DNA from: Deltaproteobacteria bacterium
GTDB taxonomy: Bacteria > Lernaellota > Lernaellaia > JACKCT01
Length of the DNA stretch: 64,000 nt
Assembly (NCBI GenBank): GCA_020845895.1
Contig: JADLEX010000057.1
Span: 1-64,000 of the forward strand
Direction of reading: 5' to 3'
Numbering within the stretch: the stretch's first letter is position 1; each line of letters starts with the position of its first letter. Position numbers and translations under genes: made by a program. Under the pieces are notes generated by a model that worked only from the letters and a program-made list of their open reading frames with translations, did no database searches and was not told where the DNA came from. Shown piece after piece: positions 28,005 to 53,653 of the stretch.

Positions 28005-29098
28005 CGACGCGCGTCGCGAATGCCCGGCGAATCCTGGATGATCAGGCGCTCGATGCCCTGGTCGTCTGGAACATGGTGAACGTGCGCTATCTGTCGGGGT
28101 TCACGGGCACTGAAGGCGCGCTCGTCATCACGCGTGATCGCGCGCAGTTCCTGACCGACTCGCGGTACGCGACGCAGATTCGCGACGAGGCGCCGGCGTT
28201 CGAACATCGGATAGCCCCGGCAAAAATCGCCAACATCGCGGCGGCTCTCACCGACATCAAGGCCGAACACGTCGGATACGAGGACGAAATCCTGCCGGTC
28301 GCGCGCGCGGTCGCGCTGCGCGACTCAACGCCGGGAGTCGAGTGGATCGGATTGGGGACACGTCTCGACGCCCTGCGTCTGCGCAAGGACCCGGCCGAGA
28401 TCGGCCTGATGCGCCGCGCGGCGCGGATCGCGGAAACCGGTCTCGACCGGGCGCTCGGGATGCTGCGGCCCGGTGTGACCGAGCGGCAGGTGGCGCTGGC
28501 GTTGGAATTCGCGATGCGCGAGGCCGGCGCGAGCGGCACGAGCTTCGACACGATCGTGGCGTCGGGTCCGCGCGGCGCGCTTCCGCACGGCGTCGCATCG
28601 GATCGCACCATCGGCGCGGGCGAGATGGTGACCATCGACTTCGGGTGCGTGGCCAACGGGTACTGTTCGGATCAGACCGTCACCATCGGCGTCGGACACG
28701 TGAACGGAGAGATGCGCCGGGTGTATGATATTGTCCTTGAAGCGCAGCATCGCGCCATCGACGCATTGCGTCCCGGCGTTTCGCTGCGCGAGGTGGACGC
28801 CCTCGCGCGCGGCGTGATCGCCGACGCGGGGTTCGACGAATTCTTCGGACACGGCCTGGGACACGGCGTGGGCATGGAGATTCATGAAAGTCCGCGAGTG
28901 TCCGGTTCGTCGGAATACACCGCGGAGGAGGGGCACGTCGTCACGATCGAGCCGGGGATCTATATTCCGGGTCGGTTCGGCGTGCGAATCGAGGATACGT
29001 TGGTGGTGACGCAGTCCGGTTGCGATCGCATCACCTCGATCGACAAGTCCTGGCGGGCGGTCGACGGGGTTACGGATGTTGTTGGGGGGCGGTCTTGA
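28001..29098 (+). CDS. M24 aminopeptidase (Xaa-Pro type)
   Basis: A creatinase-fold metallopeptidase that removes N-terminal residues before proline or splits X-Pro dipeptides. The N-terminal creatinase domain is MTTRVANARRILDDQALDAL onwards; the catalytic domain has metal ligands in VTIDFGC (Asp), YCSDQTVT (Asp), FGHGLGHGVG (His), TIEPGIYI (Glu) and VRIEDTLVV (Glu). All five are present. 365 residues. ATG 28001 overlaps the aroQ stop. Its TGA overlaps the TTG start of the giant TPR gene. Confidence 0.93.
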   Translation: MTTRVANARRILDDQALDALVVWNMVNVRYLSGFTGTEGALVITRDRAQFLTDSRYATQIRDEAPAFEHRIAPAKIANIAAALTDIKAEHVGYEDEILPVARAVALRDSTPGVEWIGLGTRLDALRLRKDPAEIGLMRRAARIAETGLDRALGMLRPGVTERQVALALEFAMREAGASGTSFDTIVASGPRGALPHGVASDRTIGAGEMVTIDFGCVANGYCSDQTVTIGVGHVNGEMRRVYDIVLEAQHRAIDALRPGVSLREVDALARGVIADAGFDEFFGHGLGHGVGMEIHESPRVSGSSEYTAEEGHVVTIEPGIYIPGRFGVRIEDTLVVTQSGCDRITSIDKSWRAVDGVTDVVGGRS

Positions 29099-32000
29099 GC
29101 AAAGGCAAGAACAAGGGTTCCTTCCTGTCGAAAATCCGGCAGAAGCCCAAGGAGAAAATCGATCCTGAACTCCAGGCCCTGCTCGAATCCGTGCAGGACG
29201 ACCCGGAGGACATGCGCGCTCGGCTGAAGCTCGCCGACGGCTACCTCAAGCGCGAGGACAAACTGCGCGCCCTCGACCAGTACCTCACGGTCGCCGAGAC
29301 GTACGCCCAGAAGGGCTTTTATCCCAAGGCCGTCGCCGTCTACAAACAGGCCCTCGCGATCGATCCCGACATGATCGAGGTCTATCTCAAGCTCGCGGGT
29401 CAGTACGAAAAATTGGGGCTCATGGGCGAGGTCGTCGCCCAGTACACCAAGGCCGCCGCGATTCACGAAAAGGCGGGCCGGAAAAAAGAGGCGATCGACA
29501 TCTTCCGCTCGCTGATCGACATGTCGCCCGACAACGCGGTCGGCCGCCTCAAGCTCGGCCAGCGCTATCTGAAGGAAGGTTTTGCCAACGAGGCGATCGC
29601 GGAATTTCTCAAAGCCGCCCGCGTCTTCGAGAAGCAGGGCGAGACGGGCGACGTCCGCCGCCTCTACGAAAGCCTGCTCGAAAAGGGTATCGAGGACATG
29701 CGCGTCGTGCATCCGCTGCTCGAGATCTACCGGGCGGCGGACGAGCACGAACTGATCCTCCAGCGGCTGTCCGCGCTCAAGACCGACGTCGCCGGATCGG
29801 CGAGCGTGCTGGAAATTCTCGCAGGGTCGAGCGCGGCGCTCGGCCGCAAGGCATCGGCGATCGCGGCGTACCAGCAGCTCATCGCGCTCTACGAACAGGC
29901 GCGCCGTCCGGACAAGGTCCACGATATCTGTATCGAGATTCTGCGGGTCGACGAGACGCACGTCGCCGCGCTCGCCAATGTCGCCGCGTGGCGCGAAAAA
30001 ATCGCCGAGCAGGAGCGTGAACGCGCCCGCCGCGCCGAGGAAGAAAAGGCCCGCCGGGCCGAGGCCGAGCAGGAGGCGGAAGTCGATATCGAACTCGAGG
30101 GCGAGGAAGACCTCGATCTCGACCTCGCGGACCGCGAAGAAGCAGCTCGGATCGCCGCCGAGGGTCTGGACGTGGACGAGGCGCGCGTCGATCGCAGCGT
30201 GCCCGATGCCGTCGAAGAGGACGTGTGGGAAGTCGCCGAGGGCGAGTCGCCGCCCACCGAGGCCGTGGACGTATTCGAAGACTCCAAGGCGCACGAGGCC
30301 GAAGACCACATCCCGATGATGGATGTGGTCGAACACGGATACGTGGCCGAGGAAAAGGACGCGCACCGCGTCGATCGCGCCGAGCCCGAAGACCACGAGG
30401 TCGAATTCGAAGATCACGCCGAGCCGGTCGCAGCGAAATCCGATGAAGACCTGGACCTGTTTGCTCCCGAGGTTGGCGAGGCCCAAGACGCCGAGGTCGA
30501 TCTGTTCTCCGAAGGCGCCGAGGCCGGGACGGACGACGTCGACCTGTTCGCGGCGGCCGAGCCAGAAGCGGCCGAAGCGGCCCGCGTGGACGTCACACCC
30601 AAGACCGAGCCGGAACCCGAGCCGGAACCCGAGCCCGAGCCCGAAATTCCGGTCGTCGATTGGGATTCGCTTTCGCCCGAGGGCGCGCGCGATCAACTCC
30701 ATCTCGCGCGCATGGCCTGCGAAGATATCGGAAAACTCGAGCGCTTCGACACCTATCTCGATGACCTCGCGGTCGAGCACCCCGAGGACCTCGTCGTGCT
30801 CCAGGCGCAGCACGACCGCGCGCTCGAAACGGGCGACGACGACGCGCGATTGGCGCATCTGTATGACCTCGTCGCCGCAGCGCGAAAGTCCGATTCTGAG
30901 GACTTTGACCGCTGGCTCGAAGTGTTGGTCGAAGCCGCACCCGACGATCTCGATGCCGCCGGTCAGCTCGCCGACCGCCTGCACGCGACGAATCCCGACC
31001 GCGCCATCGTGATGCACACGTCGCTCGCGCGACGCGCCGCTGAACGTGGTGACACCGGCGAGGCGGAACATCGCCTCGGACGCGTACTCGACATCCATCC
31101 CGAAAATCCGGGGGCGCTGGGCGACCTGCTCGATCTGCACCGGCGCACCGGCGACGAAAACAAGACCTTCGCGACGTTGATGCGCCTCGCGCCCGTCGTG
31201 GAGAATTCCGGCGATGGCGCCCGCGCCCGCGCGTTGCTCGACGAAGCCCTGCGCCTGCGTCCGGAGTCGGACGAGGCGGCCGACGCGCTGCTGGGTTTGT
31301 ACGATCGCGGGAAAGACGTCGGCGGAGCCACGGCGCTCCTGTGGAAACTCGGCCGCGACGCCGAAGACGCCAACCGCACCGACGAAGCCGAACGGCATTT
31401 CGATGCGCTGCTCACCCGCGACCCCGATCACGCCAAGGCGCGCGAGCACCTCAAGGATCTCTACATCCTGACCGATCGGCCCGCCGAGGCAATCGCGCAG
31501 TTGATTTCGCTCGCGAACGTCGCCGCCGAAGCGCGGCGATATCGCGACGCCGAGTCCGCGTTGCGCGAGGCGCTCGGCCTCGACCCGGCCTCCGACTCGG
31601 TGCGTCTCGCGCTCGCCGACCTGCTGGAGCGCGCCGATCGCCCGGTCGATGCGGCCAACGAACTGGCCGCTCTGGCCGACGCGTGGACCGCGAGCCATCC
31701 CGAAAAGGCGTCCGAAGCTTACGAGCGGGCGCTCGCGCTGGCGCCCTCGTCCGCCGCGCTCATCCGCCGGCACGCCGAGTTCCTGCGCAAGACCGGCAAG
31801 GGCGAGCAGGCCCTCGCGCGGCTGTACCAACTCGCCGATCTCGCCTCGCGTCAGGGGCGAACGGAAGAAGCCGAGTCCGCGTACCAAGAGATCCTGGTGC
31901 TGGATTCCGCCGCGGATCGCGCCCACTTGGCGCTCAAGGATCTGTACGTCACGACCGGACGCACCGATCAGGCCGTCGCCCAGCTCCTCGCCCTCGCCGA

Positions 32001-35000
32001 GTCCACCCGCAAGAGCGGCGACGACTCGACCTCCCTGGCTTACCTCGGCGAAATCGTCGGTCTCGCGCCCGAAAACCTCGCGGCGCACCGGGCGATCCTC
32101 GAACTGCATGAAGCGAGCGGCAACGTGGACGCGGCGGTGGGCGAGATGATCGCCATCGCGCGGATCCAGGCGGCCGCCGGAAACACCGCCGACGCCGCGA
32201 CGGCCCTGCGCAAGGTCCTGAAGCTCCGTCCCGAGGACACCGAGGCGTTCGAGCGCCTCAAGTCGATCTACATCGAATCGGGCGACGAAAAACGCGCGCT
32301 CGAATTGCTGCTCGGACGCGCCGAGCGCATGGAAAAGGCCGGCCGACTCGAAAACGCCCTCGCCGCGATCGACGAGGTGCTCGTTCTCGTTCCCGGACGC
32401 ATCGACGCCCTCGAGGCGCGCAAGGCGTTGCTCCTCGCCCTCGGCAACACCGACGGCGCGGTGTCGACGCTGCGTCTGATGGCGGCCGTGCACCGCGGCG
32501 CGGATCGGTCGGCCGATGCCGAAAACACACTGCGCGAGATCGTGCGTCTGGCCCCCTCGGACATGGCCGCGCGCGAGGAACTCGCCGAACTCTATCTCGC
32601 CTCGAATCGCGCCGAGCGAGCCGTCGCTCCCTACGAAGAACTCATTGACCTCGCCGAAGCGTCGGGCGACGTGGACGCGATCGAGCGCTATGCCCGGGCC
32701 GTTTTGCAAATCGCGCCCGATCGCACGCGGGCTCTCGAGGCACTGGCCGAACTCTACGAGCATCAGGAGCGGGGCTCGGACGCCGCGAAGATCTTTGAGA
32801 CCCTCGCGGATCTCGCCGTCGCCGGAAACGATGTCACCGCCGCGCGCGATTGGCTCGGACGGGCGTCGATGCTGCTTCCCGATGATCCGGGACCGCTCAC
32901 TCACCTGCTCGAAATCGCCCGATCTCAGGGCGACGCGGCGGTCCAGGTGCGCGCGCACATCGATCTCGCCACGCTCTTTTCACGTCTCGGTCAAAACGAC
33001 CACGCCGAAACGCAGCTCAACTTCGCGCTTTCGGTCGAACCCGGCGCGGATGCCGCGCTCGACGCCCTCGTCGCCCTCTACCGGGCGACCGACCGCGACG
33101 CGCTCACTATTCCGCACCTTGTCGCACTGGCCGAGATCGAGATCGAACGTCAGAACACATTCGCCGCCGAGGAGCGCCTGAATGCGGTTCTCGAGATCGA
33201 CGACGGCCACGCGGGCGCGCTCGAATTGCTGTCGGACCTGCACCTGCGTTCGGGCGATACCGACCGGGCCGTGCGCGAACTCTTCCGCCTCGTCGCCGCC
33301 GCGCAGACGCGCGGGGACATCGAGAGCGCCTTGGCGACGCTGGCGCGCGTCGAATCCGCCGACCCGACAAACATCGAGGCGATCCGCCGTCGCGCCGATC
33401 TGCTCGAAGAGGCGGGACGCCCCGACGAGGCCGTCGACGAGCTCACTCGCCTCGCAAACGCGCTGCGTCGCGCGGGCGATACCGACGAAGCGGGGAAGAC
33501 CCTGCGACGAATCCTCGCGGCCGACCCGCGCCACGAGGCGGCGCACGTCGAGCTCGTCTCGCTGTGCCGCGAATCGGGCGACACCGACGGGGCGATCGAC
33601 GAACTCTTCCGCCGCGCCGATATCCTCACCGCCGACGGCGAAACCGCCGCCGCGGCCGCGGCGCTCGGCGAAATTCTGGAAACGGCGCCCGGCAACGATC
33701 GCGCCCTGTGGGATCTGGCGGATCTGCACGAACTCACCGGCGAAATCCCCGAAGCGATCGACCGGCTCATGTCGCTCGCCCGTTACGCCCACGACGCGGG
33801 TCGTCCCGAACGCCGCGAGGAAGCGCTGCGCCGCGTGATCGCCCTCGATCCGGTGCACGGCGAAGCACAAATCCAGCTCCGCGCCCATTACGCCGAATCG
33901 GGCCGAACCGAGCAGGCGATCGAATTCGCTTACGATTATGCCGCGCGGCTGATTGCCGGCAGGCAGAGCGACCGTGCCGAGGCCGTCTATCGCGACATCC
34001 TGCGTCTCGACGCGACCTCCGACCGCGCGGCCGAGCAGCTCGTGGATCTCGCGATCGGCCGAGGCGACACCGCTCGTGCCATCGAAGTCCTGCGGGGACG
34101 GGCCGACGCCGCCGAAGCAGCGGGCGACACCGACCGGCTCGTGTCCGTTCTGCGCCGGTGCGTCGCGATCGACGCCTACAATCCCGATGAATGGGACCGG
34201 CTCAAGGACGTTTATGTCGCAGCAGGTCGCCGCGCCGAGGCGATCGAAACGATCTTCGAATCGCTCGAAACCCTCTCCGAAGCGATGTCCCCGGACGAGA
34301 TCGAGGGCCGCCTCCTCGAAGTGCTCGCGCTCGACGACGGAAACACGCGCGCGCTGCGCCGGCTCGGCGATCACTATCGACGCCAGGGCGCTGCCGATCG
34401 CGCCGCCGACGCGCTCATGCGCCTGGGCGAAAGCTGCGCCGAAGCCGGCGAATCCGCGGCGGCCCGCGCCGCATTCGCCGAGGTCGCGATGATCGATCCC
34501 AACCATGCCCCGGCGCTGGTCCGGCTCGCCGATCTCGCGCTCGCCGCGGGCGATGGCGACGAGGCCGCGAGCGCATACCTGCGGGCCGCAGGAACGCTCG
34601 TTGGGCAAGGCGATCACGACGGCGCAATCCGCGCGGCGAACGCCCTGCTCGAAATGGGCCGTCACGAGGAACGCGCGCTCGCCATCGCGCGCGACGCGTA
34701 CTCGGCGAAGGGCGACGCCGTCGCCGTGGCGGAGATCGAGCGTCGTCTCGCCGACCTCGCCGAATCGACCGGCGATCTTTACGCCGCGGAAGGCGCGCTG
34801 CGCGCCATCGCCCAGAGGGACGTGGAAGACTTCACGATTCGCGGCCGACTCGCCGACGTGCTGGCCCGCGAGGGCAAGACCACCGAGGCACTCGCCGAAC
34901 TCTACGCCGTCGCCGATCTCGCGGCGAAGGCGGGGGACGTCGCCACGCAGGCATCGGCGCTCACGCGCGCGGTCGAGATCGATCCCGACAACGCGAAGGC

Positions 35001-37170
35001 GCATCGGCGCCTGCTGCGCCTGCACGAAGCCGCCGGCGACACCGAGGCCGTGCGCGCCCGCATCGACGAGCTCATCCGCATCCATTCCGGGCTTCGCGAA
35101 AACGAAGAGGTCGAGGCGCTCTACCTGCAACGGTTGCAGCTCGATCCGACCGACGCCCCAGCGCGCGAAGCGCTCTCGGAGCTTTATGTCGCGTCGGGCG
35201 AGACCGACAAAGCGCAGCTCTTCCTCTTCGACGAAGCCGAGACCGCGGAGCACGAGGGCCGCGAGGAAGACGCACTGGCGCTCTACGAACGCATTGTCGC
35301 GCTCGACGGCGCGAACGAGGCCGCGCGGCTGCGCGTTCACGAACTGCACAGGGCCGCGGGGAACATGGCGGCCGCGGCCGGCGCGCTGATCGGTCTCGTC
35401 GATCAGTGCATGGCGGCCCGGCGATACCACTCGGCCGAGAAGCATCTGCATGCGATTCTGTCGATGGACCCGACGAACGGCGCGGCCAAGGAGCGCATCG
35501 CCGATCTGTTCATGCGCTCGGCGCAGGAGAAAGCGCAGGTCGAGAGCCTCTTGCGACTCGCTGAAAAAGCGCTGGGCGCGGGGCAATACGAAGAGGCGCG
35601 CGCCCGGCTCGACGACGTGCTCGCGCTCGATCCGGAGAATCCCGAGGGACGCAACCTCGTCAACGCGATCCACTTCCGCCAGCCGGCGGTGGCCCGGCGC
35701 GAAGCCGGAGCGATCTTCGAGGATGTCGAAGTCGAGTATCAGGACCAGGGAGACGTGGCGATCTCGTGGAGCGACGAGGATCGCGGACGGCAGCCCGCGA
35801 TGGAGGAACCGCACGCCGCCGCGTCGTCCGCGTTCGCGGACACGTCGGCCGAAATCGATCTCTTCTCCGAGGGCGGCGAGCCGCGTGACGTCGAGTCGGG
35901 CTTCGACATCGATACCGGTGAAGGCGACGTCGCTGACGCCGTCGAGTCGCCGGTGGTGGACATCTTCGCCGCGCCGTCCGCCCCCGCGGACGAGACTCTG
36001 GACGGTGAAGAGGGCGAACTTGCCGCAGCCGCCGAGGCCGCGGACTTCAGCGTGGACGCTTTCGCGGTGCGCGAAGACGAGGCCCGTACGACCGAGATCG
36101 TCGCCGAGCCGGTGGATCTGTTCGGATCGGTGACCGAGGAACCGCGCCTGCCCGAGCCCATGCCCCAGGCCGAGCCCGCGGACGTGGATCTCTTCGGCGA
36201 CGGGGACGATTCCGCGCCCGAACCCGAGGTCGACCTGTTCGGCGAGTCGGCGAAGCCCGAATCCGCGCCGCCGTCGGAGTGGCCGGATGTCGAATTGCGC
36301 CCGGGCGGCGATCTCGAATCGACGACGGGCCCCGCGGAACCGTCGTTTGAGATCGTACACGAAGACGGTCTCGCGACGGACGAGGTGGATCTGTTCGACC
36401 GGCCGGACGCGGGATCGGACGACGTCGATCTGTTCGCGCCGACCGAGGAGACGCTCGAAGAAGCCACTGCCGGAGACGACCTCGTTGAGGAATTGCTCGA
36501 ACTCGAGGAACGCAAACCGGCGCGCGACGAGGCAAAGGGCATCGGAGAACTGCTGCTCGACAGCCTGATCGGTCCGGAGAAAACACCGGCGCCGATTCCC
36601 GAGCGCCGCGCCGTCGAGACCGACATGCTCGACGACTTCATCAGCGCGCTCGGCGGCGAGTCGGCCGGCGCGCCTTCCGCGGCGCCCGGCGACTTCCTCG
36701 CGGACCTCGCCTCCGAATTCCGCAACATGCTCGGCGGCGAAGCGCCGCAGGACGCGCAGGCGCATTACGCGCTCGGCATCGCATTCCGCGAGATGGAGCA
36801 GACGAACGACGCCATCACCGAATTCGAAAAAGCGCTCGCGCTCGGCGACGAGGCGATGGAATCGCAGATCGCGCACCAGCTCGCTCAGTGCTACATCGAG
36901 GCCGAGACTTGGGACCAGGCGGCGGAGTACCTGTCGCAGACGCTCGACGCCACGGAGCGCGGCGGCGGCGACATCGATCCGGTGGACGTGCGCATGGATC
37001 TGGGGCTCGCGTACAAGGCGATGGGTAAGCTCAAGCGGGCGTTGGCGACCTTCCAGGAAGTCGATGCGCAAAACGCCAACTACCGGGGCGTGAAAGCCGA
37101 AATCCAGAGCCTGAAGAAGCAGCTCGGCGAGGGCGGCGACGAACCGCCCGACAACATCAGCTTCGTGTGA
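29095..37170 (+). CDS. Giant TPR protein (2,691 residues) with two acidic VDLF-repeat linkers
   Basis: Start TTG 29095 overlaps the M24 peptidase stop (TTGA) after a G-rich ribosome binding site. Residues 1-300 form the basic N-terminus SKGKNKGSFLSKIRQKPKEK and TPRs (GFYPKAVAVYKQALAIDPDM). Residues about 300-520 are an acidic linker with a PE run. Residues about 520-2190 are an array of TPR-like units, by length roughly 45-50. A second acidic linker spans about 2200-2535, and a final TPR domain about 2540-2685. Both linkers repeat the motif (D/E)-(V/I/L)-D-L-F, nine exact copies (first at 30448-30462) plus variants. No enzyme motif, signal peptide or TM segment. A cytoplasmic scaffold is inferred; the N-terminal module resembles TPR proteins of other Deltaproteobacteria. 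Confidence 0.92.
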   Translation: MSKGKNKGSFLSKIRQKPKEKIDPELQALLESVQDDPEDMRARLKLADGYLKREDKLRALDQYLTVAETYAQKGFYPKAVAVYKQALAIDPDMIEVYLKLAGQYEKLGLMGEVVAQYTKAAAIHEKAGRKKEAIDIFRSLIDMSPDNAVGRLKLGQRYLKEGFANEAIAEFLKAARVFEKQGETGDVRRLYESLLEKGIEDMRVVHPLLEIYRAADEHELILQRLSALKTDVAGSASVLEILAGSSAALGRKASAIAAYQQLIALYEQARRPDKVHDICIEILRVDETHVAALANVAAWREKIAEQERERARRAEEEKARRAEAEQEAEVDIELEGEEDLDLDLADREEAARIAAEGLDVDEARVDRSVPDAVEEDVWEVAEGESPPTEAVDVFEDSKAHEAEDHIPMMDVVEHGYVAEEKDAHRVDRAEPEDHEVEFEDHAEPVAAKSDEDLDLFAPEVGEAQDAEVDLFSEGAEAGTDDVDLFAAAEPEAAEAARVDVTPKTEPEPEPEPEPEPEIPVVDWDSLSPEGARDQLHLARMACEDIGKLERFDTYLDDLAVEHPEDLVVLQAQHDRALETGDDDARLAHLYDLVAAARKSDSEDFDRWLEVLVEAAPDDLDAAGQLADRLHATNPDRAIVMHTSLARRAAERGDTGEAEHRLGRVLDIHPENPGALGDLLDLHRRTGDENKTFATLMRLAPVVENSGDGARARALLDEALRLRPESDEAADALLGLYDRGKDVGGATALLWKLGRDAEDANRTDEAERHFDALLTRDPDHAKAREHLKDLYILTDRPAEAIAQLISLANVAAEARRYRDAESALREALGLDPASDSVRLALADLLERADRPVDAANELAALADAWTASHPEKASEAYERALALAPSSAALIRRHAEFLRKTGKGEQALARLYQLADLASRQGRTEEAESAYQEILVLDSAADRAHLALKDLYVTTGRTDQAVAQLLALAESTRKSGDDSTSLAYLGEIVGLAPENLAAHRAILELHEASGNVDAAVGEMIAIARIQAAAGNTADAATALRKVLKLRPEDTEAFERLKSIYIESGDEKRALELLLGRAERMEKAGRLENALAAIDEVLVLVPGRIDALEARKALLLALGNTDGAVSTLRLMAAVHRGADRSADAENTLREIVRLAPSDMAAREELAELYLASNRAERAVAPYEELIDLAEASGDVDAIERYARAVLQIAPDRTRALEALAELYEHQERGSDAAKIFETLADLAVAGNDVTAARDWLGRASMLLPDDPGPLTHLLEIARSQGDAAVQVRAHIDLATLFSRLGQNDHAETQLNFALSVEPGADAALDALVALYRATDRDALTIPHLVALAEIEIERQNTFAAEERLNAVLEIDDGHAGALELLSDLHLRSGDTDRAVRELFRLVAAAQTRGDIESALATLARVESADPTNIEAIRRRADLLEEAGRPDEAVDELTRLANALRRAGDTDEAGKTLRRILAADPRHEAAHVELVSLCRESGDTDGAIDELFRRADILTADGETAAAAAALGEILETAPGNDRALWDLADLHELTGEIPEAIDRLMSLARYAHDAGRPERREEALRRVIALDPVHGEAQIQLRAHYAESGRTEQAIEFAYDYAARLIAGRQSDRAEAVYRDILRLDATSDRAAEQLVDLAIGRGDTARAIEVLRGRADAAEAAGDTDRLVSVLRRCVAIDAYNPDEWDRLKDVYVAAGRRAEAIETIFESLETLSEAMSPDEIEGRLLEVLALDDGNTRALRRLGDHYRRQGAADRAADALMRLGESCAEAGESAAARAAFAEVAMIDPNHAPALVRLADLALAAGDGDEAASAYLRAAGTLVGQGDHDGAIRAANALLEMGRHEERALAIARDAYSAKGDAVAVAEIERRLADLAESTGDLYAAEGALRAIAQRDVEDFTIRGRLADVLAREGKTTEALAELYAVADLAAKAGDVATQASALTRAVEIDPDNAKAHRRLLRLHEAAGDTEAVRARIDELIRIHSGLRENEEVEALYLQRLQLDPTDAPAREALSELYVASGETDKAQLFLFDEAETAEHEGREEDALALYERIVALDGANEAARLRVHELHRAAGNMAAAAGALIGLVDQCMAARRYHSAEKHLHAILSMDPTNGAAKERIADLFMRSAQEKAQVESLLRLAEKALGAGQYEEARARLDDVLALDPENPEGRNLVNAIHFRQPAVARREAGAIFEDVEVEYQDQGDVAISWSDEDRGRQPAMEEPHAAASSAFADTSAEIDLFSEGGEPRDVESGFDIDTGEGDVADAVESPVVDIFAAPSAPADETLDGEEGELAAAAEAADFSVDAFAVREDEARTTEIVAEPVDLFGSVTEEPRLPEPMPQAEPADVDLFGDGDDSAPEPEVDLFGESAKPESAPPSEWPDVELRPGGDLESTTGPAEPSFEIVHEDGLATDEVDLFDRPDAGSDDVDLFAPTEETLEEATAGDDLVEELLELEERKPARDEAKGIGELLLDSLIGPEKTPAPIPERRAVETDMLDDFISALGGESAGAPSAAPGDFLADLASEFRNMLGGEAPQDAQAHYALGIAFREMEQTNDAITEFEKALALGDEAMESQIAHQLAQCYIEAETWDQAAEYLSQTLDATERGGGDIDPVDVRMDLGLAYKAMGKLKRALATFQEVDAQNANYRGVKAEIQSLKKQLGEGGDEPPDNISFV

Positions 37171-37245: not shown

Positions 37246-37803
37246 TTAGACGATCGATGTGGGCGCCGCCGGGCCGACGGCGGTCGGGTTGCCCGAACGC
37301 AGGTCGACGAGGCGCGTCTCGATGAACTTGTTGAACCTGTCGTGCGCCATTTGGATCGTGTTCGCGGCGGTGTCGAGAATGCCTTTGTCGTTCACGCCGA
37401 GATTCGACAGAATTCCCAGCGCCTCGCTGTAGCCCTGGTCGATCGCGCCGTTGATGAGCGCCTGATAGCTCACCAGCGCATGTTCCTCGCTCATGTCGGG
37501 ATTCTGCTGCTGGTAGAGACCGAAGAGCCCGATCGCGAAATCCGCGATTCGCCCGCTGACAGCCTGGGGCGACGTGTCCACGGTGGACAGATCGTAGCCG
37601 AGTTCCTTCGCCGCGAGCTGCGTCATCTCCAGAATCTTCTGGAGCGACCTGTCGGCGACCACCTGGAGGGAGCGCGCGCGATCGACCGACCCGATGCGGA
37701 CCTGATCCGCGATGCCGGGTTTCGACTTCTTCTCGATGCGTTGCGCGTCCTTGGATCCGGCCGCGACCGCGGCCTGCGAGCCGGTCAATCCGTTGACGTT
37801 CAT
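37246..37803 (-). CDS. DUF5610 protein
   Basis: A 185-residue protein whose centre matches my memory of DUF5610: ELGYDLSTVDTSPQAVSGR, IADFAIGLFGLYQQQNPDM, VSYQALINGAIDQGYSEA and GILDTAANTIQMAHDRFNKF. It is mostly helical with no signal peptide or TM. ATG 37803 follows GGAGGGCGAGG; an upstream start is unlikely. The role of DUF5610 is not known to me; in other genomes it is often fused to or near flagellar or surface proteins, but there are none here. It lies downstream of the double radical-SAM gene (gap 127 bases, same strand). Confidence 0.8.
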   Translation of the reverse strand: MNVNGLTGSQAAVAAGSKDAQRIEKKSKPGIADQVRIGSVDRARSLQVVADRSLQKILEMTQLAAKELGYDLSTVDTSPQAVSGRIADFAIGLFGLYQQQNPDMSEEHALVSYQALINGAIDQGYSEALGILSNLGVNDKGILDTAANTIQMAHDRFNKFIETRLVDLRSGNPTAVGPAAPTSIV

Positions 37804-37930
37804 CCTCGCCCTCCGGTGGCGTGCCAAGGGAATCCGCCGCGTCCGCTTCGGACCCTCGTCATGGTATCGGAAACGATCTTATGAAACTTGAGCGACGCCG
37901 CGCAATCGCCTTCGTAGCGCGGGGCGAACC

Positions 37931-40915
37931 CTACAGCCAGGCGTCGAGGCCGGTTTCGCGCAGCACCTCGCGCAGCCGCTCCACGCCTTCATAATTGGGG
38001 CAGCGCGTGCAGATCGGATCGAAGAGCGGCTTGTCGTTGGCGAAGCGGTAGTCGCGGTGCGTCGCCATGTACTTGCCGGCCACGCGGGCGCGGTCGTAGT
38101 CGTCGCCCGTCCAGATGTCGCGGAATCGCGCGGTGTTGACGTCGTGCACGACCTTCGGGCTGCAACAGTAGCTCACGCGCCCGTCGGCCCAGACGCGGGA
38201 GAACGCCCATCCCACGAGGCAGCCGTCGTCGAGATACCGCGTGCCGCTCCAGTTCTGCGCGCTCTCGGCGAGCTGCACGTCGATGTTCTCGACGACCCGA
38301 ATTCCCGCCGTTTCCGCGACCTTTTTCGCGTCCACGATGTGACTTCGCACGCGGGCCAGTTCTTCGTCCGACAGGGCCAGCTCGCGATTGTACGGCTCGA
38401 TCGCCGTGAGCTGGTAACGCAAGTGATCGACGCCGAGACGTGCGCCGAGTTTCGCGAACGACACAATGTCGTCCACGTTCCGATTGCCGATCACGCACAC
38501 CAGCACAACCTCGGGCTTGTCCGACACGTCTCGCCCCTTGATGCGCATGAGCGTTTCCAGATTCGCAATCACGCGGTCGAACTCGTCGTCGGGCGCACCC
38601 GGGTGCGTGCGTCGGTACACCTCGCGGTCCGAGGCCATGAGGCTCACGTACAGCAGGTCGCACCCCGCCTCGACGAGCGTGGTGGCCAGCTCGGGCGTCA
38701 GTCGAATGCCGTTCGTGAAGAGCGTCGTGAAGAGCTTTCGATCCTTCAGATAACGCACCATGTCGGCGATGCGCGGGTGCGTGGTCGGCTCGCCCTTGCC
38801 CGAAAGCACGACGTCCTCTCCCGCATGCAAATCGGCGAGGTCGTCGGCGAGACGCGTGAACACGTCCCAGTCGAGCATGGACTTCTTCCAGTTCGGCCCC
38901 AGATCCTCGCGGCCCTTCGCGAGCGGCGAGTGGAACCAGCACGGCACACAGTCGGTGTTGCACGAGTTCGTCACGTCGAGGTGAAACGTGCGCGGGCCGA
39001 CGAGGGCCATGTTTGCGACGACGCCCAGCGCGCGCAGCCGCTCCGACTCGCGGATGTCGCCGCTCGCCGCCCGGGCGAAACACTCCTGAAGGCTTCGCGT
39101 CGCGGGATCGAGATCGACGCCGATCTTGCCCAGCACCATGCGCGCGCCCGCTAGAAAGTTTTCGACGCGGCCCGAAAGGGTTTCGAGCGGCGTAACCGAC
39201 AGGGCGAGCATTTCGGCGTTTGGCGCGCGTCGCCCCGTGGTCTCCTCGATCAGCGCGGCGATCTTCGGCAGGCGAAAGATGTTGTCCGGCAGCAGCGGAA
39301 CGCGGATTCGATCGCCCGGTGCGGACGCACGTAGCGCCTCGATGGTCCGCGAAAAGCGCCGCCCCTCGCCCAGGATATGGTCGTGCAGCAGGTCGATGTC
39401 CGCCGCGAGGCTGACGAACGGCATGCCGACGCGGATGGGACTCACGGCGTCGGGAAGCACGGCGGAGATCGGCGCGGCTTGCGACGCGGTAGGCCGTGGC
39501 GGCTTCAAGCCCGATGGCGCGGGCGCGACCTGCGGCGACGTCGCGACGAACGCAACCGGGGTGTAACCTTCCGGCGCTCCCGGGGGCTTGGGTGCATTCG
39601 GTCTCGGCCCGCCGTTCGCGCGCGGCGGCTCGGGGCGAGGGCGTTCGTGCGTGATGACGGTCGCGGCGACGGCGGGGAGAGCCGTCGCATCACCAACGAG
39701 CCCGCCGTGACTCGCGGCGATGAGCGCGTCGCGGGAGGCGCCTGCCTTCGCCATGTCGACGAGGCGATCCACCAGCGCGGCATCCTCGGGAGTCAGCCCG
39801 CCGCGGATGCGCATGACCTCCTGATTATGCCCGAGGTTGTCGCAGATGCGAAAACACCCGGGAAGCGGGAAGTTCACGTCGTGGCCGATCTGCATGAGCC
39901 ACGGGTCGTTCTGATCGATCTTGATCGTGTGGCGGCGGAATTCGTCGTGCCGGTCGCCGAACCAGACGTTGTCGAAGCCGTCCTTTGCCTGCCCCGACGG
40001 GATTCGGTGCGATTTGAGACACGCATTCACGAGCCCGGTGGTGGTGATGCGCGTGAAGAACCACCCGGCCGCGCAGGGAATCGTCGCGACGATGCCGTTG
40101 TCGAAGACGCCCTTGAGGGCATCGACGTTGTGCAGGCGGCGCATCATGAGCTCGGTGTGGACGAAAGGCTTGTTGTCCTGCCGGAACTCGGCGTGCCACC
40201 GATCGATCCACGCGATGTGCGACTCGTTGAGGTTGAATATCGACGTGCGGCCGGGGATCGGGTCCATCACCGACAGCTCGACCTCCTCGACGCCGAGATC
40301 GCGCCCGTAGGCGATCATGCCCGGAATCTCGCGGTAGTTGAGGCTGCACACGACGTTGTAGATTTTCACGCGCGGGACGCGCAGACCGGCGGCGCGCCGC
40401 GCGGTAAGCCTTGCCAGCAGATCGGTCACGATGCGAAAGGTCTTTTCGCTTTTGTTCGGATGCAGCTTCGCGTACGTCTCCCCGGTCGCGGCCCAGACGG
40501 AGACGATGAGGTTGTCGAGCCCCACGTCGCACAGCGCGTCGAGCTGCACCTCGTTCGTGCACACGAAGCTCGTGTTCACGGTACAGCGCATCCCGGCGTC
40601 CTTGATCCAACGCACCACGTCGATCAGGTATTTGTAGCAGCTCGGGTCGCCGCCGCCGCCCAGAAACACTTCGGCGACGCGCAGGTCCTTGAGGCGCGGG
40701 ATGAGGTCGAAGACGAACCGCGGCGAATGCTCATCCAGTTCCAGCGTATCGTAGTGATCGCCGTCCCGCAAAAACGGCGAGCGCGCCCAGCACCCGACGC
40801 AGTTGTTGGGGCAGGTGTCCGTCAGGTCGAGATGCACCATCTCGGGCCCGATGAGCGCCCGGTCGCCCAGTTTCATGCCCGCGAGTCGTAGTGCGGTGTC
40901 GCCGTCGATGGCCAA
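37931..40915 (-). CDS. Tandem double radical-SAM/SPASM-like protein
   Basis: 994 residues with two complete radical-SAM modules. Module 1 (about 20-415) has the cluster motif CPNNCVGCW (Cys35, 39, 42) and later CAAGWFFTRITTTGLVNAC and PGCFRIC, a SPASM/twitch-like Cys set. A Pro-rich linker (about 425-480) follows. Module 2 (about 615-994) has CNTDCVPCW (Cys652, 656, 659), VVLSGKGEPTTH, then CLVGWAFSRVWADGRVSYC and CTRCPNYEG. Both CX3CX2C motifs are intact, so each half should make a 5'-deoxyadenosyl radical. Start TTG 40915 follows AGAGGAC. No RiPP-like precursor peptide is evident; substrate unknown. Radical-SAM with SPASM usually modifies peptides or proteins. Confidence 0.92.
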   Translation of the reverse strand: MAIDGDTALRLAGMKLGDRALIGPEMVHLDLTDTCPNNCVGCWARSPFLRDGDHYDTLELDEHSPRFVFDLIPRLKDLRVAEVFLGGGGDPSCYKYLIDVVRWIKDAGMRCTVNTSFVCTNEVQLDALCDVGLDNLIVSVWAATGETYAKLHPNKSEKTFRIVTDLLARLTARRAAGLRVPRVKIYNVVCSLNYREIPGMIAYGRDLGVEEVELSVMDPIPGRTSIFNLNESHIAWIDRWHAEFRQDNKPFVHTELMMRRLHNVDALKGVFDNGIVATIPCAAGWFFTRITTTGLVNACLKSHRIPSGQAKDGFDNVWFGDRHDEFRRHTIKIDQNDPWLMQIGHDVNFPLPGCFRICDNLGHNQEVMRIRGGLTPEDAALVDRLVDMAKAGASRDALIAASHGGLVGDATALPAVAATVITHERPRPEPPRANGGPRPNAPKPPGAPEGYTPVAFVATSPQVAPAPSGLKPPRPTASQAAPISAVLPDAVSPIRVGMPFVSLAADIDLLHDHILGEGRRFSRTIEALRASAPGDRIRVPLLPDNIFRLPKIAALIEETTGRRAPNAEMLALSVTPLETLSGRVENFLAGARMVLGKIGVDLDPATRSLQECFARAASGDIRESERLRALGVVANMALVGPRTFHLDVTNSCNTDCVPCWFHSPLAKGREDLGPNWKKSMLDWDVFTRLADDLADLHAGEDVVLSGKGEPTTHPRIADMVRYLKDRKLFTTLFTNGIRLTPELATTLVEAGCDLLYVSLMASDREVYRRTHPGAPDDEFDRVIANLETLMRIKGRDVSDKPEVVLVCVIGNRNVDDIVSFAKLGARLGVDHLRYQLTAIEPYNRELALSDEELARVRSHIVDAKKVAETAGIRVVENIDVQLAESAQNWSGTRYLDDGCLVGWAFSRVWADGRVSYCCSPKVVHDVNTARFRDIWTGDDYDRARVAGKYMATHRDYRFANDKPLFDPICTRCPNYEGVERLREVLRETGLDAWL

Positions 40916-41034: not shown

Positions 41035-41062
41035 TTGACAAAAGCGAAGCCCCCGGCATAAC
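41035..41062 (+). promoter_or_regulatory. Putative sigma-70 promoter for the lipoprotein gene
   Basis: A perfect TTGACA (41035-41040) and, after 16 bp, CATAAC (41057-41062, four matches). The start of transcription would be near 41069, 22 bases before ATG 41091. Confidence 0.6.
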
Positions 41063-41090
41063 GTCGAGGCGGTTCTCCAGAGGTGATGGA

Positions 41091-41489
41091 ATGCGTTTTC
41101 GCGCCGTGTTCGTCGTGACGTTGTGCCTCGCGGGCATTGCCCTCGCCGCGTGTTCGCGCGAACCGGTCGTCTTCGGCGATCCGGGCACGGCCAAATTCTC
41201 GAAGATCAGCACCGCCATGCTGCGACAAAGCGCGGTCGATATGATGGGCCGCCCGATCACAATCGGCGAAAAGTTCCTCATGTCACTCGGGACGGAGTTC
41301 GCCGAAGGGTACGAGGCGTTCCTGTGCAAGGGCGATTTCGGAGAGATCGTGATCCTGTGCCCCTTGGGCAAGTACAGCGACCAGATCAAGTCCCTGCGAA
41401 AGGGCCGCCCGATTGTCGCGTATGGATTCGTCACGACGATCGTTCCACCCGGCAAGCAGCGCGCCCTCATTGCGGTCTCCGTCGAATAG
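41091..41489 (+). CDS. Small lipoprotein, unknown
   Basis: A 132-residue protein with a signal peptide (MRFRAVFVVTLCLAGIALAAC, lipobox LAAC, mature Cys about residue 21). The mature part contains TIGEKFLMSLGTEFAEGYE and IVILCPLGKYSDQIKSLRKG, with two Cys that may pair. It appears to be a compact beta-rich domain (an OB-fold-like single-strand binding or periplasmic folate-binding shape is possible), but no family is recognised. SD AGAGGTGA. It precedes the RlmI-type gene by 12 bases and could be co-transcribed with it. Confidence 0.75.
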   Translation: MRFRAVFVVTLCLAGIALAACSREPVVFGDPGTAKFSKISTAMLRQSAVDMMGRPITIGEKFLMSLGTEFAEGYEAFLCKGDFGEIVILCPLGKYSDQIKSLRKGRPIVAYGFVTTIVPPGKQRALIAVSVE

Positions 41490-41501: not shown

Positions 41502-42698
41502 ATGACCATTCCCGCGTGCGTCCTCAAGTTCGGCCGCGAAAAGAGCCTTCTGGCGAGGCATCCCTGGGTGTTTTCCGGGGCGCTGCAACGTGAACCTGAC
41601 GTCGACCGCGGCGAGACGGTGGATGTCGTCACCGCCGACGGGCATTTCGTCGCGCGCGGCGCGTATAACCCCGACAGCCAGATCCGCGTTCGCGTCTACA
41701 CGTTTGAACCCGAGGCGATCGACGAGTCCTTTTTCGAACGGCGTATCCGCGAGGCGCTTACGTGGCGGCGCGCCCTGCTGCCCGCGGATACGAACGCATT
41801 CCGCGTGTGTTTCGCCGAAGGCGACGAACTCCCCGGCGTGATCGTCGATCACTACGACGGGTTTGTCGCGCTCCAGTTGCAGACCGCCGGCGCCGATGCG
41901 CGGCGCGAGGACATCGTCGAGGCCGTCCGCCGTGTGCTCGCGCCCAAGGGCATCTACGAGCGCAGCGACAGCGGTTTCCGCCGCGAGGAAGGGCTCGACA
42001 CGCGCACAGGTCCGTTGTTCGGCGACGTGCCGCCCGCGACGCTGCCGGTGAAGGAATCGGGTGTCACGCACCTCGTGGACATCGCGAACGGCCAGAAGAC
42101 CGGCATGTTCCTCGACCAGCGCGATTCGCGCGCCGTCGCGCGGCGGCTCGCAAACGGCAAAACCGTTCTCAACGTGTTTTCCTACACCGGCGGATTCGCG
42201 CTCGCCGCACTCGCGGGCGGAGCCACGCGCGCGGTGAACATCGATACCAGCGGCGCGGCCCTGGCCATCGCGCGCGAGGCGTACCGGGCGAACGGATTCG
42301 CGGTGAATGACGCCGACTTCATCGAGGACGACGCATTTGCGCGACTGCGTGTCATGGACGAGCGATTCGATGTCGTGATTCTCGATCCGCCCGCGTTCTG
42401 CAAGAGCCAGTCGCACGTCAAGACCGCCCTGCGCGGTTACAAGGACGTTATCATGCAGGGTCTACGGCGCACCAAGCCGGGCGGCCTGTTGCTCGCGTTT
42501 TCGTGCTCGGGGCACGTGGACGCGACGCTCTTCCAAAAGGTCATCTTCGGCGCGGCGCTCGACGTCGGCCGCCAGGCGCAAATCCTCGCCCGGCTCGGCC
42601 ACTCGTTCGACCACCCGATCAACATCTATCATCCCGAAGGCGAATACCTGTCCGGCTACGTCGTCCGGGCGGGACGCGAGGAGGCTCACGCGCGATGA
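41502..42698 (+). CDS. Class-I rRNA large-subunit methyltransferase (RlmI-like)
   Basis: RlmI methylates C5 of cytosine 1962 in 23S rRNA. An N-terminal PUA-like domain (KFGREKSLLARHPWVFSGAL) is followed by a central EEHEE-like region and a Rossmann methyltransferase core: DQRDSR, VLNVFSYTGGFALAAL (SAM loop), VILDPPAFCKS and LLAFSCSGHVD with the catalytic Cys in FSCSGH. 398 residues is normal. The stop overlaps the following ATG (ATGA). rlmI assignment is at family level. Confidence 0.93.
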   Translation: MTIPACVLKFGREKSLLARHPWVFSGALQREPDVDRGETVDVVTADGHFVARGAYNPDSQIRVRVYTFEPEAIDESFFERRIREALTWRRALLPADTNAFRVCFAEGDELPGVIVDHYDGFVALQLQTAGADARREDIVEAVRRVLAPKGIYERSDSGFRREEGLDTRTGPLFGDVPPATLPVKESGVTHLVDIANGQKTGMFLDQRDSRAVARRLANGKTVLNVFSYTGGFALAALAGGATRAVNIDTSGAALAIAREAYRANGFAVNDADFIEDDAFARLRVMDERFDVVILDPPAFCKSQSHVKTALRGYKDVIMQGLRRTKPGGLLLAFSCSGHVDATLFQKVIFGAALDVGRQAQILARLGHSFDHPINIYHPEGEYLSGYVVRAGREEAHAR

Positions 42699-52308: not shown

Positions 52309-52989
52309 GTGAAAAACTTTGCACTAGCCCTCGCGCTCGCGGTTATGGCGGCTCTGACGCTTCCCTTTGCCTGCGGTTCGGACGACGACTCCGATGACGA
52401 GCAGACCGACGATGGCGACGGTGAAATCGACGACGATGGGAGCGATCGGGTCCTTGATCTGCGAAATGACGACATCGGCGAAGACGAGTGCCAGTATGGA
52501 CCGAACGACGGCGAGGCATGGGTGGATTCGTCCTCGGGACTGATGTGGCAGACCGGCTATTCCTGCGACAATCGCACAGTCGACGAAGTGGTCGACTACT
52601 GTGCGAATTTGACCGTCGGCGGACACATCGATTGGCACGTGCCGTCGATTTCCGATCTCCGCACTCTGATCAGAGGTTGTTTTAGCACAGCGACCGCTGG
52701 GGAGTGTATGATAACGGATGACTGCTTTGATTTCGCTGTGTGCGAAGACGTATCTTGTAAAGGATGCAGCTATGGTGATGGACCAACTGACGGTTGTTTC
52801 GGGCCGTCCGGGTTGGACAACCCTTGCGGGTGGTATTGGTCGTCGACCCAGCGATGGGATGATGCATCGGCAAGTTTTTGGACGGTTGCGTTCGTCGAAG
52901 GAAGAATTACCAGCAGTGAAATCGGCGACGACAACGAGGGAGATTCCGGCTTCCTCGTACGTTGCGTGCGGAATGGAGAATCGAGCTAA
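52309..52989 (+). CDS. Lcl/DUF1566 lipoprotein with Asp-rich tether, copy 1
   Basis: 226 residues: signal peptide MKNFALALALAVMAALTLPFAC, lipobox PFAC, then a tether dominated by Asp (GSDDDSDDEQTDDGDGEIDDD). The domain (about 60-225) matches PF07603 (Lcl/DUF1566 C-terminal, C-type-lectin-like fold): WVDSSSGLMWQTG, WHVPSISDLRTLIRGC, GWYWSSTQRWDDASASFW and FLVRCVRNG, with several Cys. It starts 12 bases after the metalloprotease. Surface lipoproteins of this family bind carbohydrates or are uncharacterised. A near-copy follows. Confidence 0.88.
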   Translation: MKNFALALALAVMAALTLPFACGSDDDSDDEQTDDGDGEIDDDGSDRVLDLRNDDIGEDECQYGPNDGEAWVDSSSGLMWQTGYSCDNRTVDEVVDYCANLTVGGHIDWHVPSISDLRTLIRGCFSTATAGECMITDDCFDFAVCEDVSCKGCSYGDGPTDGCFGPSGLDNPCGWYWSSTQRWDDASASFWTVAFVEGRITSSEIGDDNEGDSGFLVRCVRNGESS

Positions 52990-53294
52990 GTTGGTGGCGC
53001 TGCTTTTTGCTCTCGGCATGGTTCTGACACTTCCCTTCGCCTGCAGTTCGGACGACGACACCGACGACGAGCAGACCGGCAATGGCGACGGTGAAACCGA
53101 CGACGACGATGGGAGCGATCAGGTCCTTGAGCTGAGAAATGACGACATCGGCGAAGACGAGTGCCAGTATGGACCGAACGACGGCGAGGCTTGGGTGGAT
53201 TCGTCCTCGGGACTGATGTGGCAGACGGGCTATTCCTGCGACAATCGCACAGGCGACGAAGTGACGGACTACTGCGCGAATTTGACCGTCGGCG
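52459..53294 (+). repeat. Tandem DNA duplication within two lipoprotein genes
   Basis: Bases 52459-52621 and 53132-53294 (offset 673) are almost identical over 163 bases, while flanking parts of the two genes differ clearly at the protein level. A recent duplication or gene conversion limited to this part is indicated. The copies cover the WVDSSSGLMWQTG region of the domain. Confidence 0.85.
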
Positions 53295-53653
53295 GGTTTT
53301 CCGATTGGCGCGTGGCGACGATTTCGGAGCTTCGAACACTGATCCGAGGTTGTTTTCTCACAGGTCCCGGCGGCGAGTGCGGTATCACCGATGTTTGCTA
53401 CGACTACTCCACTTGCGTGAATGATGCGTGCAACGGCTGCGGCAACGGCGGGGGGCCAACCGACGGTTGCTTTGGTCAAAGCGTACTGGATAATCCTTGC
53501 GGCTGGTTTTGGTCGTCTACCCCAATGTCGGCCGATCCGTCGGCAAGCGATTGGATTATTTCATTTGGCTCAGGAAGAGTCATGAGCAGCGAAATCGGCG
53601 ACGACAACGAGGGGGATGCCGGGTTTCTTGTTCGCTGCGTGCGGAATGGCTGA
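52973..53653 (+). CDS. Lcl/DUF1566 lipoprotein with Asp-rich tether, copy 2
   Basis: 226 residues, overlapping the end of copy 1 by 17 bases. Signal peptide MENRAKLVALLFALGMVLTL, lipobox PFAC, Asp tether SSDDDTDDEQTGNGD. The domain is collinear with copy 1 (GLMWQTGYSCDNRTGDE, WRVATISELRTLIRGC, GWFWSSTPMSADPSASDW, GFLVRCVRNG). Conserved Cys support a disulfide-bonded extracytoplasmic fold. It is the last gene of the exported-protein operon. Confidence 0.88.
   Translation: MENRAKLVALLFALGMVLTLPFACSSDDDTDDEQTGNGDGETDDDDGSDQVLELRNDDIGEDECQYGPNDGEAWVDSSSGLMWQTGYSCDNRTGDEVTDYCANLTVGGFSDWRVATISELRTLIRGCFLTGPGGECGITDVCYDYSTCVNDACNGCGNGGGPTDGCFGQSVLDNPCGWFWSSTPMSADPSASDWIISFGSGRVMSSEIGDDNEGDAGFLVRCVRNG

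Follow-up and report, generated by a model that had tools for sequence, protein, structure and literature searches.

A class-wide fusion of two putative twitch-type radical SAM modules of different ancestry, with relatives among glycan genes

The 64,000-nucleotide stretch of DNA analysed here (the window) contains, on the minus strand at positions 37931..40915, a gene for a protein of 994 aa that Pfam and its orthologues identify as a fused double radical SAM (rSAM) enzyme, probably of the twitch type. The open reading frame runs from 40915 to 37931, stop codon included, and begins with a TTG codon. The bases upstream of the TTG read GAGAGGACGATTTG, with GAGAGG a few bases 5′ of it, and the start codon is therefore preceded by a Shine-Dalgarno-like sequence; the other orthologues start at about the same place. 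Across the gene, GC3 is 0.86 and GC2 0.46, a contrast characteristic of genuine coding sequence in this genome. Pfam detects Radical_SAM in two stretches (8.9e-30 over the whole protein) and SPASM once (2.5e-08). Both halves belong to the Radical_SAM family (104.5 bits against a cut-off of 29.5) and contain CX3CX2C.

The first module is an N-type rSAM/twitch module (the N-half; residues 1-395, 39731..40915, minus strand), supported by alignment, tree and fold match to BlsE. It is followed by a Pro-rich linker (residues ~396-504, 39404..39730, minus strand), an accessory domain (residues ~505-635, 39011..39403, minus strand) and the rSAM/twitch core of the C-half (residues 636-994, 37934..39010, minus strand), the last being supported by Pfam, alignment and fold. 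The linker, already described as Pro-rich in the original prediction, is real (~400-510), but it is far shorter in the remaining fused orthologues than in the window genome (G000) and G001, the only ones in which it is long. It is the least conserved part of the protein, varies between orthologues and is modelled with low confidence (pLDDT <50 over residues 405-519 in the model of the whole protein). The accessory domain of ~130 aa, which the original prediction had missed, lies N-terminal to the C-half core and is also present in unfused C-type paralogues. VIA-align gave no identity for residues 505-635, its rows spanning the rSAM part only, and neither the accessory domain nor the linker matches Wzt_C (hhalign probability 0.09). 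A search of a viral fold library with the protein returned only generic rSAM proteins. The AlphaFold model of the whole protein reaches a pLDDT of 73.9 and a pTM of 0.52, and because of this pTM the relative orientation of the two halves is not readable from it; the C-half and its accessory domain modelled alone reach 91.6 and 0.90, respectively.

Both modules carry a complete set of cluster motifs. The SAM-cluster motif of the N-half is CPNNCVGCW (residues 35-43, 40787..40813, minus strand), with cysteines invariant in 16/16 N-type rows, and that of the C-half is CNTDCVPCW (residues 652-660, 38936..38962, minus strand), with three cysteines invariant in 19/19 C-type rows. According to the alignments, the auxiliary-cluster region of the N-half contains the invariant residues C281, C299, C354 and C358 (39842..40075, minus strand), and that of the C-half the equally invariant C899, C917, C918, C969 and C972 (38000..38221, minus strand). 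The distal motifs read C-AAGWFFTRITTTGLVNA-C in the N-half and C-LVGWAFSRVWADGRVSY-CC in the C-half, so that the combination of CX3CX2CW and a shared distal pattern initially noticed in the two modules fits both halves exactly. All 15 cluster cysteines, seven in the N-half (three SAM-cluster and four auxiliary) and eight in the C-half (three and five), are invariant in the six fused orthologues described below, and the wider alignments retain the seven in 16/16 and the eight in 19/19 rows. The SAM-cluster cysteines, the Trp following them and a glycine-rich GGE-like motif are likewise kept in both halves of all six fused orthologues. As far as can be judged from sequence, the clusters of both halves thus appear competent, in line with the original prediction.

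SPASM domains harbor two auxiliary clusters and twitch domains one, as described in two papers (PMC10470005; PMC9012708), the second of which reports that the auxiliary cluster of BtrN is ligated by four cysteines. Cysteines for two auxiliary clusters were not found in either half: because only four and five C-terminal cysteines are invariant, the pattern fits one auxiliary cluster per half and hence a twitch domain rather than a full SPASM domain, so that the label SPASM-like used earlier is better read as twitch. In both halves and in BtrN, the alignment shows that the auxiliary motif opens with C-x17-C. The Pfam SPASM model, which also covers twitch-like ends, matches the C-half.

The conservation of the fusion was followed in a phylum sample of seven genomes (G000-G006), all from one class. 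Each of the seven contains a match to the protein, and both halves lie in one open frame in six of them; these fused orthologues share 42-56% identity with the window protein along its entire length. Because six independent assemblies share the two-module frame, the fusion is not an accident of chance or assembly, and the protein can be regarded as a genuine tandem enzyme, as first proposed. The exception is G002, in which a single frameshift breaks the N-half and the C-half is absent; the gene that follows codes for a P_proprotein-domain protein. The frameshift may be an assembly error; split frames occur elsewhere in this assembly too. The missing C-half is not a contig-end effect, since the locus lies inside a 109-kb contig. 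A scan of genome contigs found one locus among eight candidate stretches, namely that on the G002 contig. Because the N-half of G002 stands without a C-half, the two halves are not strictly inseparable.

Beyond the phylum, domain-wide samples searched at E <= 1e-25 gave an N-type match in 22/290 and a C-type match in 49/290 genomes, and outside the class these matches were mostly weak and restricted to a single module. A profile of the fused protein (E <= 1e-40) matched 10 and 11 genomes in two overlapping samples of 386 genomes, and in both samples a match spanning the two halves was obtained only for the class members G001, G003 and G004. In the 290- and 386-genome searches, two to six candidates were scored per genome, and absence from them is weak evidence. 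Among the genomes sampled, the exact fusion of an N-type and a C-type module was seen only in this class. The view that tandem enzymes of this kind are rare calls for qualification: FbiC is a known double-rSAM fusion (PMC11917521), and several other multi-rSAM fusions were encountered in this analysis. Among the open-licence papers searched, we found no description of the proteins studied here.

A comparison of the halves by phylogeny, proposed earlier with regard to a possible duplication, separated them. In a tree of 56 rows, the N-halves group with N-type proteins (22 rows, 98/99) and the C-halves with C-type proteins (24 rows, 100/97). A tree in which all 12 fused halves are constrained to a single clade is worse by 165 log-likelihood units (p-AU 0.00016), so that an internal duplication of one module is rejected. 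The same separation into N and C clades was recovered in a second tree that gained six rows and lost four. Here, the fused N-halves are sister to an N-type protein encoded in an operon of G193, a genome of another phylum (98/93; long branch), and a stand-alone C-type protein of G193 (L123) lies within the fused C-half group, grouping with the window and G001 at 95/70, its exact place being weak. The nesting in both trees and the rejection of a single clade argue for a single joining of two subfamilies that preceded the divergence of the class, and against any recent internal duplication. According to the original prediction, it would count against the idea if the halves came from different subfamilies and were joined in this assembly alone; the subfamilies do differ, but the join is class-wide.

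The immediate surroundings of the fused gene are poorly conserved. The gene 103 bases downstream (37246..37827, minus strand) encodes a DUF5610 protein according to Pfam. DUF5610, whose co-conservation had been put forward as a check, is present in 4/7 genomes and adjoins the fused gene only in the window, and was rejected as a functional partner. A giant TPR protein of 2716 aa (29020-37170 of the window) was also rejected; it is not conserved next to the orthologues. Divergent from the fused gene lie a small lipoprotein-like gene without a Pfam family (41052..41489, plus strand, start approximate) and an rRNA methyltransferase-like gene with PUA and Methyltrans_SAM domains (41502..42698, plus strand). 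These two are the only conserved neighbours in the window, and they are kept only in one family of loci (f1: the window, L041 and L042); the rRNA methyltransferase-like gene is not thought to be functionally linked to the fused gene. Three genomes of a further family (f3) have a few other small genes in common around the fused gene, and in two of them (G004 and G006) a third rSAM/SPASM gene lies directly downstream of it. Among the neighbours scanned, none of the seven orthologous loci adjoins a glycan gene. The genome to which the window belongs contains 35 GT1 matches, none of them on contig C57, which carries the fused gene.

Fold comparisons with VIA-align relate both halves to sugar-acting enzymes. 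The best row for the N-half is BlsE (7vob; Z 25.1, rmsd 2.9, 302 aligned). For the C-half, DesII (8hzv; Z 26.0, rmsd 4.4, 333 aligned) is tied with BlsE (Z 25.9, rmsd 3.3, 301 aligned), and the RiPP maturases SkfB (Z 24.4), SuiB (23.6) and PqqE (21.9) follow. Because the RiPP maturases score close behind the sugar-acting enzymes, the fold does not settle the substrate. At the sequence level, the N profile matches PqqE best (4.3e-10), then BlsE and BtrN, and the C profile SkfB (1e-12), then BlsE. The cytosylglucuronate decarboxylase BlsE resembles each half in combining an rSAM core with a C-terminal domain and acts on a sugar moiety, but it is a single module from a natural-product pathway with 17-18% identity. 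The 2-deoxy-scyllo-inosamine dehydrogenase BtrN shares with the halves the C-x17-C start and, to judge from sequence, the twitch type of domain, which in BtrN holds one auxiliary cluster on four cysteines (PMC9012708); unlike the fused protein, it is a single short module of an aminoglycoside pathway without any fusion. DesII, a TDP-sugar radical deaminase and the top Foldseek row, has an extra N-terminal domain ahead of its rSAM core (PMC11434129), as does the C-half, but only a single [4Fe-4S] cluster and no auxiliary one. Its aligned range starts at the rSAM core, leaving the accessory domain outside.

The genomic context of relatives was compared as well. On contig C17 of the window's own genome, adjacent genes encode N-type modules fused to a GT4 glycosyltransferase and to a partial carbamoyltransferase, and the same locus contains genes for an MsbA-like ABC protein, PMT_2, a Kdo transferase, a DUF885 protein and a complete carbamoyltransferase. 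Homologues of this pair were found in 6/6 other loci of the class that were examined; in G002 and G006, the frames of the pair are broken or cut by the contig. At L047 in this genome, the N-type module of the GT4-rSAM and carbamoyltransferase-rSAM paralogues is 32% identical to the N-half of the window protein and has the same cluster cysteines, but it is joined on its N-terminal side to a glycosyltransferase or carbamoyltransferase domain and not to another rSAM module. C-type proteins of G004 are clustered with Wzm, Wzt, an O-antigen ligase and a flippase. Wzt homologues also adjoin C-type genes in L052, L054 and L055 (with G004, 4/4 such clusters), and a related C-type gene of G002 adjoins Wzt.

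Similar associations occur outside the phylum. In G193, an overlapping operon encodes an N-type protein of 411 aa, the sister of the fused N-halves named above, and C-type proteins of 919 and 521 aa. At its C-terminus, the 919-aa protein carries a Wzt_C-like domain (hhalign probability 93.7; 20 shuffles <=1.12), and a second G193 protein consists of a C-type rSAM module, a Wzt_C-like domain and a further rSAM module (hhalign probability 97.8; 30 shuffles <=0.74). Pfam scores the Wzt_C-like domain of this three-part protein at 18.9 bits against a cut-off of 30.4 and misses that of the 919-aa protein. In G386, a B12-rSAM module and two N-type modules form one protein of 1531 aa, whose gene adjoins a GT1 gene and lies ~4 kb from LpxK, and in G390 a C-type, a GT4-N-type and an N-type gene form an overlapping operon. 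The partners of these relatives' modules are glycan enzymes, and in at least three phylum-level groups the same modules recur in fusions, both with one another and with glycan domains. Their occurrence as fusions and overlapping genes in varied orders suggests that the modules work together.

Based on these observations, our preferred reading, which we advance tentatively and rate at slightly under an even chance, is that the fused protein is a two-site twitch rSAM enzyme that modifies an envelope (surface) glycan. Each half would bind one SAM-cleaving and one auxiliary [4Fe-4S] cluster and would generate its own 5′-deoxyadenosyl radical. The two halves would then work one after the other, or at two positions, on a single substrate, which is presumably the reason for their joining. 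This substrate would most likely be a sugar in a glycan of the cell envelope (LPS core or O-antigen, either lipid-linked or polymeric), and a carbon of that sugar would be oxidised, decarboxylated, epimerised or deoxygenated by radical chemistry. By analogy with the proposal made for BtrN, the fully Cys-ligated auxiliary cluster would take up the electron. The main weakness of the glycan reading is the lack of an adjoining glycan gene: paralogues and unfused relatives are located in glycan loci; the fused gene itself, judged by its scanned neighbours, is not.

Alternatively, catalysis could be confined to one half, with the other acting in electron relay or docking and retaining its clusters for a redox or structural purpose. 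In favour of this, the reactivation of PapB, a multi-cluster rSAM enzyme, can require intermolecular electron transfer (PMC10470005), and G002 retains the N-half only. We nevertheless consider a division of labor of this kind improbable, given that SAM-cluster cysteines, Trp and GGE-like motif are kept in both halves of all six fused orthologues.

A similarly low probability is assigned to a logic like that of the FO synthase FbiC, in which two 5′-deoxyadenosyl radicals, one per half, would serve to assemble a single small molecule or cofactor in two stages. According to PMC11917521, FbiC contains two rSAM domains in one bacterial protein, which in archaea are two proteins, CofG and CofH. The N- and C-type modules show a parallel: one phylum has them fused, whereas in others they are separate. 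FbiC, however, belongs to different rSAM families and is not known to contain twitch or SPASM domains, and at E <= 1e-12 neither half matched any of the CofG, CofH and FbiC models, which we take to be included in the NCBIfam library. The paralogue context, moreover, is one of glycan export.

It is quite unlikely that the protein is a tandem RiPP maturase in which each half introduces a single cross-link or other modification into a shared precursor peptide, although the original prediction had pointed to a peptide substrate with one site per half. Most characterised SPASM/twitch enzymes do act on peptides, and PqqE and SkfB are among the best matches in sequence and fold. But none of the 421 short ORFs tested within 4 kb of the seven orthologous loci qualified as a conserved precursor peptide gene: six pairs match between loci, of which five are antisense to the rRNA methyltransferase or the third rSAM gene, and the sixth is a gene of 123-130 aa common to G004 and G005 only. 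In addition, the relatives have glycan genes rather than precursor genes next to them. A maturase of a metalloenzyme or tungsten cofactor is the least plausible of these explanations: of the NCBIfam models, TIGR04317 (W_rSAM_matur) fits both halves best, as it does most of the unfused relatives scanned, but scores of 66.5 bits (N-half), 109 bits (C-half) and 170.9 bits (whole protein) fall far below its cut-off of 380, and no W/Mo oxidoreductase is found among the window genes scanned.

Returning to the envelope glycan as substrate, characterised sugar-acting rSAM enzymes come mostly from antibiotic pathways, and radical editing of LPS or O-antigen sugars, if true, would represent a new layer of envelope chemistry. 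On a broader and more doubtful view, the fused protein could belong to a family of multi-engine radical enzymes, with two to four rSAM modules per chain, that make successive edits on one lipid-linked or exported LPS/O-antigen glycan. Such a family, which we think rather less probable than not, would be so far undescribed, its modules being joined in varying orders with glycosyltransferase, carbamoyltransferase, Wzt_C and B12 domains, and might amount to something like an assembly line of radical steps on sugars of the cell surface. With both clusters conserved, the fused pair offers a tractable test of two radical sites working sequentially on one substrate, and this question is accessible to domain deletion because the same modules recur in fusions across at least three phylum-level groups.

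In G002, a genome of the same class as the source genome, the N-half of the fused enzyme is encoded as a solitary gene interrupted by one frameshift (locus L042, 9524-10733, plus strand), and no C-half was found at this locus, which lies in the interior of a 109-kb contig. A third rSAM/SPASM gene is located immediately downstream of the fused gene (L044, 9086-10216, minus strand; L046, about 6054, plus strand), at a position where it occurs in the class members G004 and G006 only.

The window's own genome also encodes a 2063-aa protein (contig C158, locus L048, 4583-10774, plus strand) in which the CX3CX2C rSAM motif occurs four times; the protein also has two B12-binding stretches, and its C-terminus is formed by one twitch module of the N-type, the subfamily of the fused enzyme's N-half. 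This N-type module is likewise present in long frames of five other class genomes. Genome G386 encodes a 1531-aa protein (contig C59, L169, 758-5353, minus strand) that combines a B12-rSAM part and two N-type twitch modules in a single chain; a GT1 gene adjoins it, with LpxK close by.

A double rSAM protein from another phylum (G193, contig C280, L159, 2-3325, plus strand), whose frame is open at the contig end, carries a Wzt_C-like carbohydrate-binding domain between its two rSAM modules. In the source genome, a chimera joins part of Carbam_trans_N to an N-type rSAM module (contig C17, L047, 11038-14139, plus strand), and a complete carbamoyltransferase is encoded 1.1 kb downstream.

Elsewhere in the window, a 2716-aa TPR protein (29020-37170, plus strand) shows, as read from its sequence, many repeats of a short DVDLF-like motif in its acidic N- and C-terminal regions. 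Two neighbouring, mutually similar lipoprotein-like genes are located at 52309-53653 (plus strand); the first contains an Lcl_C domain (E 4.1e-14), the second reads much like it, and similar copies are found in G002 and G004 loci.
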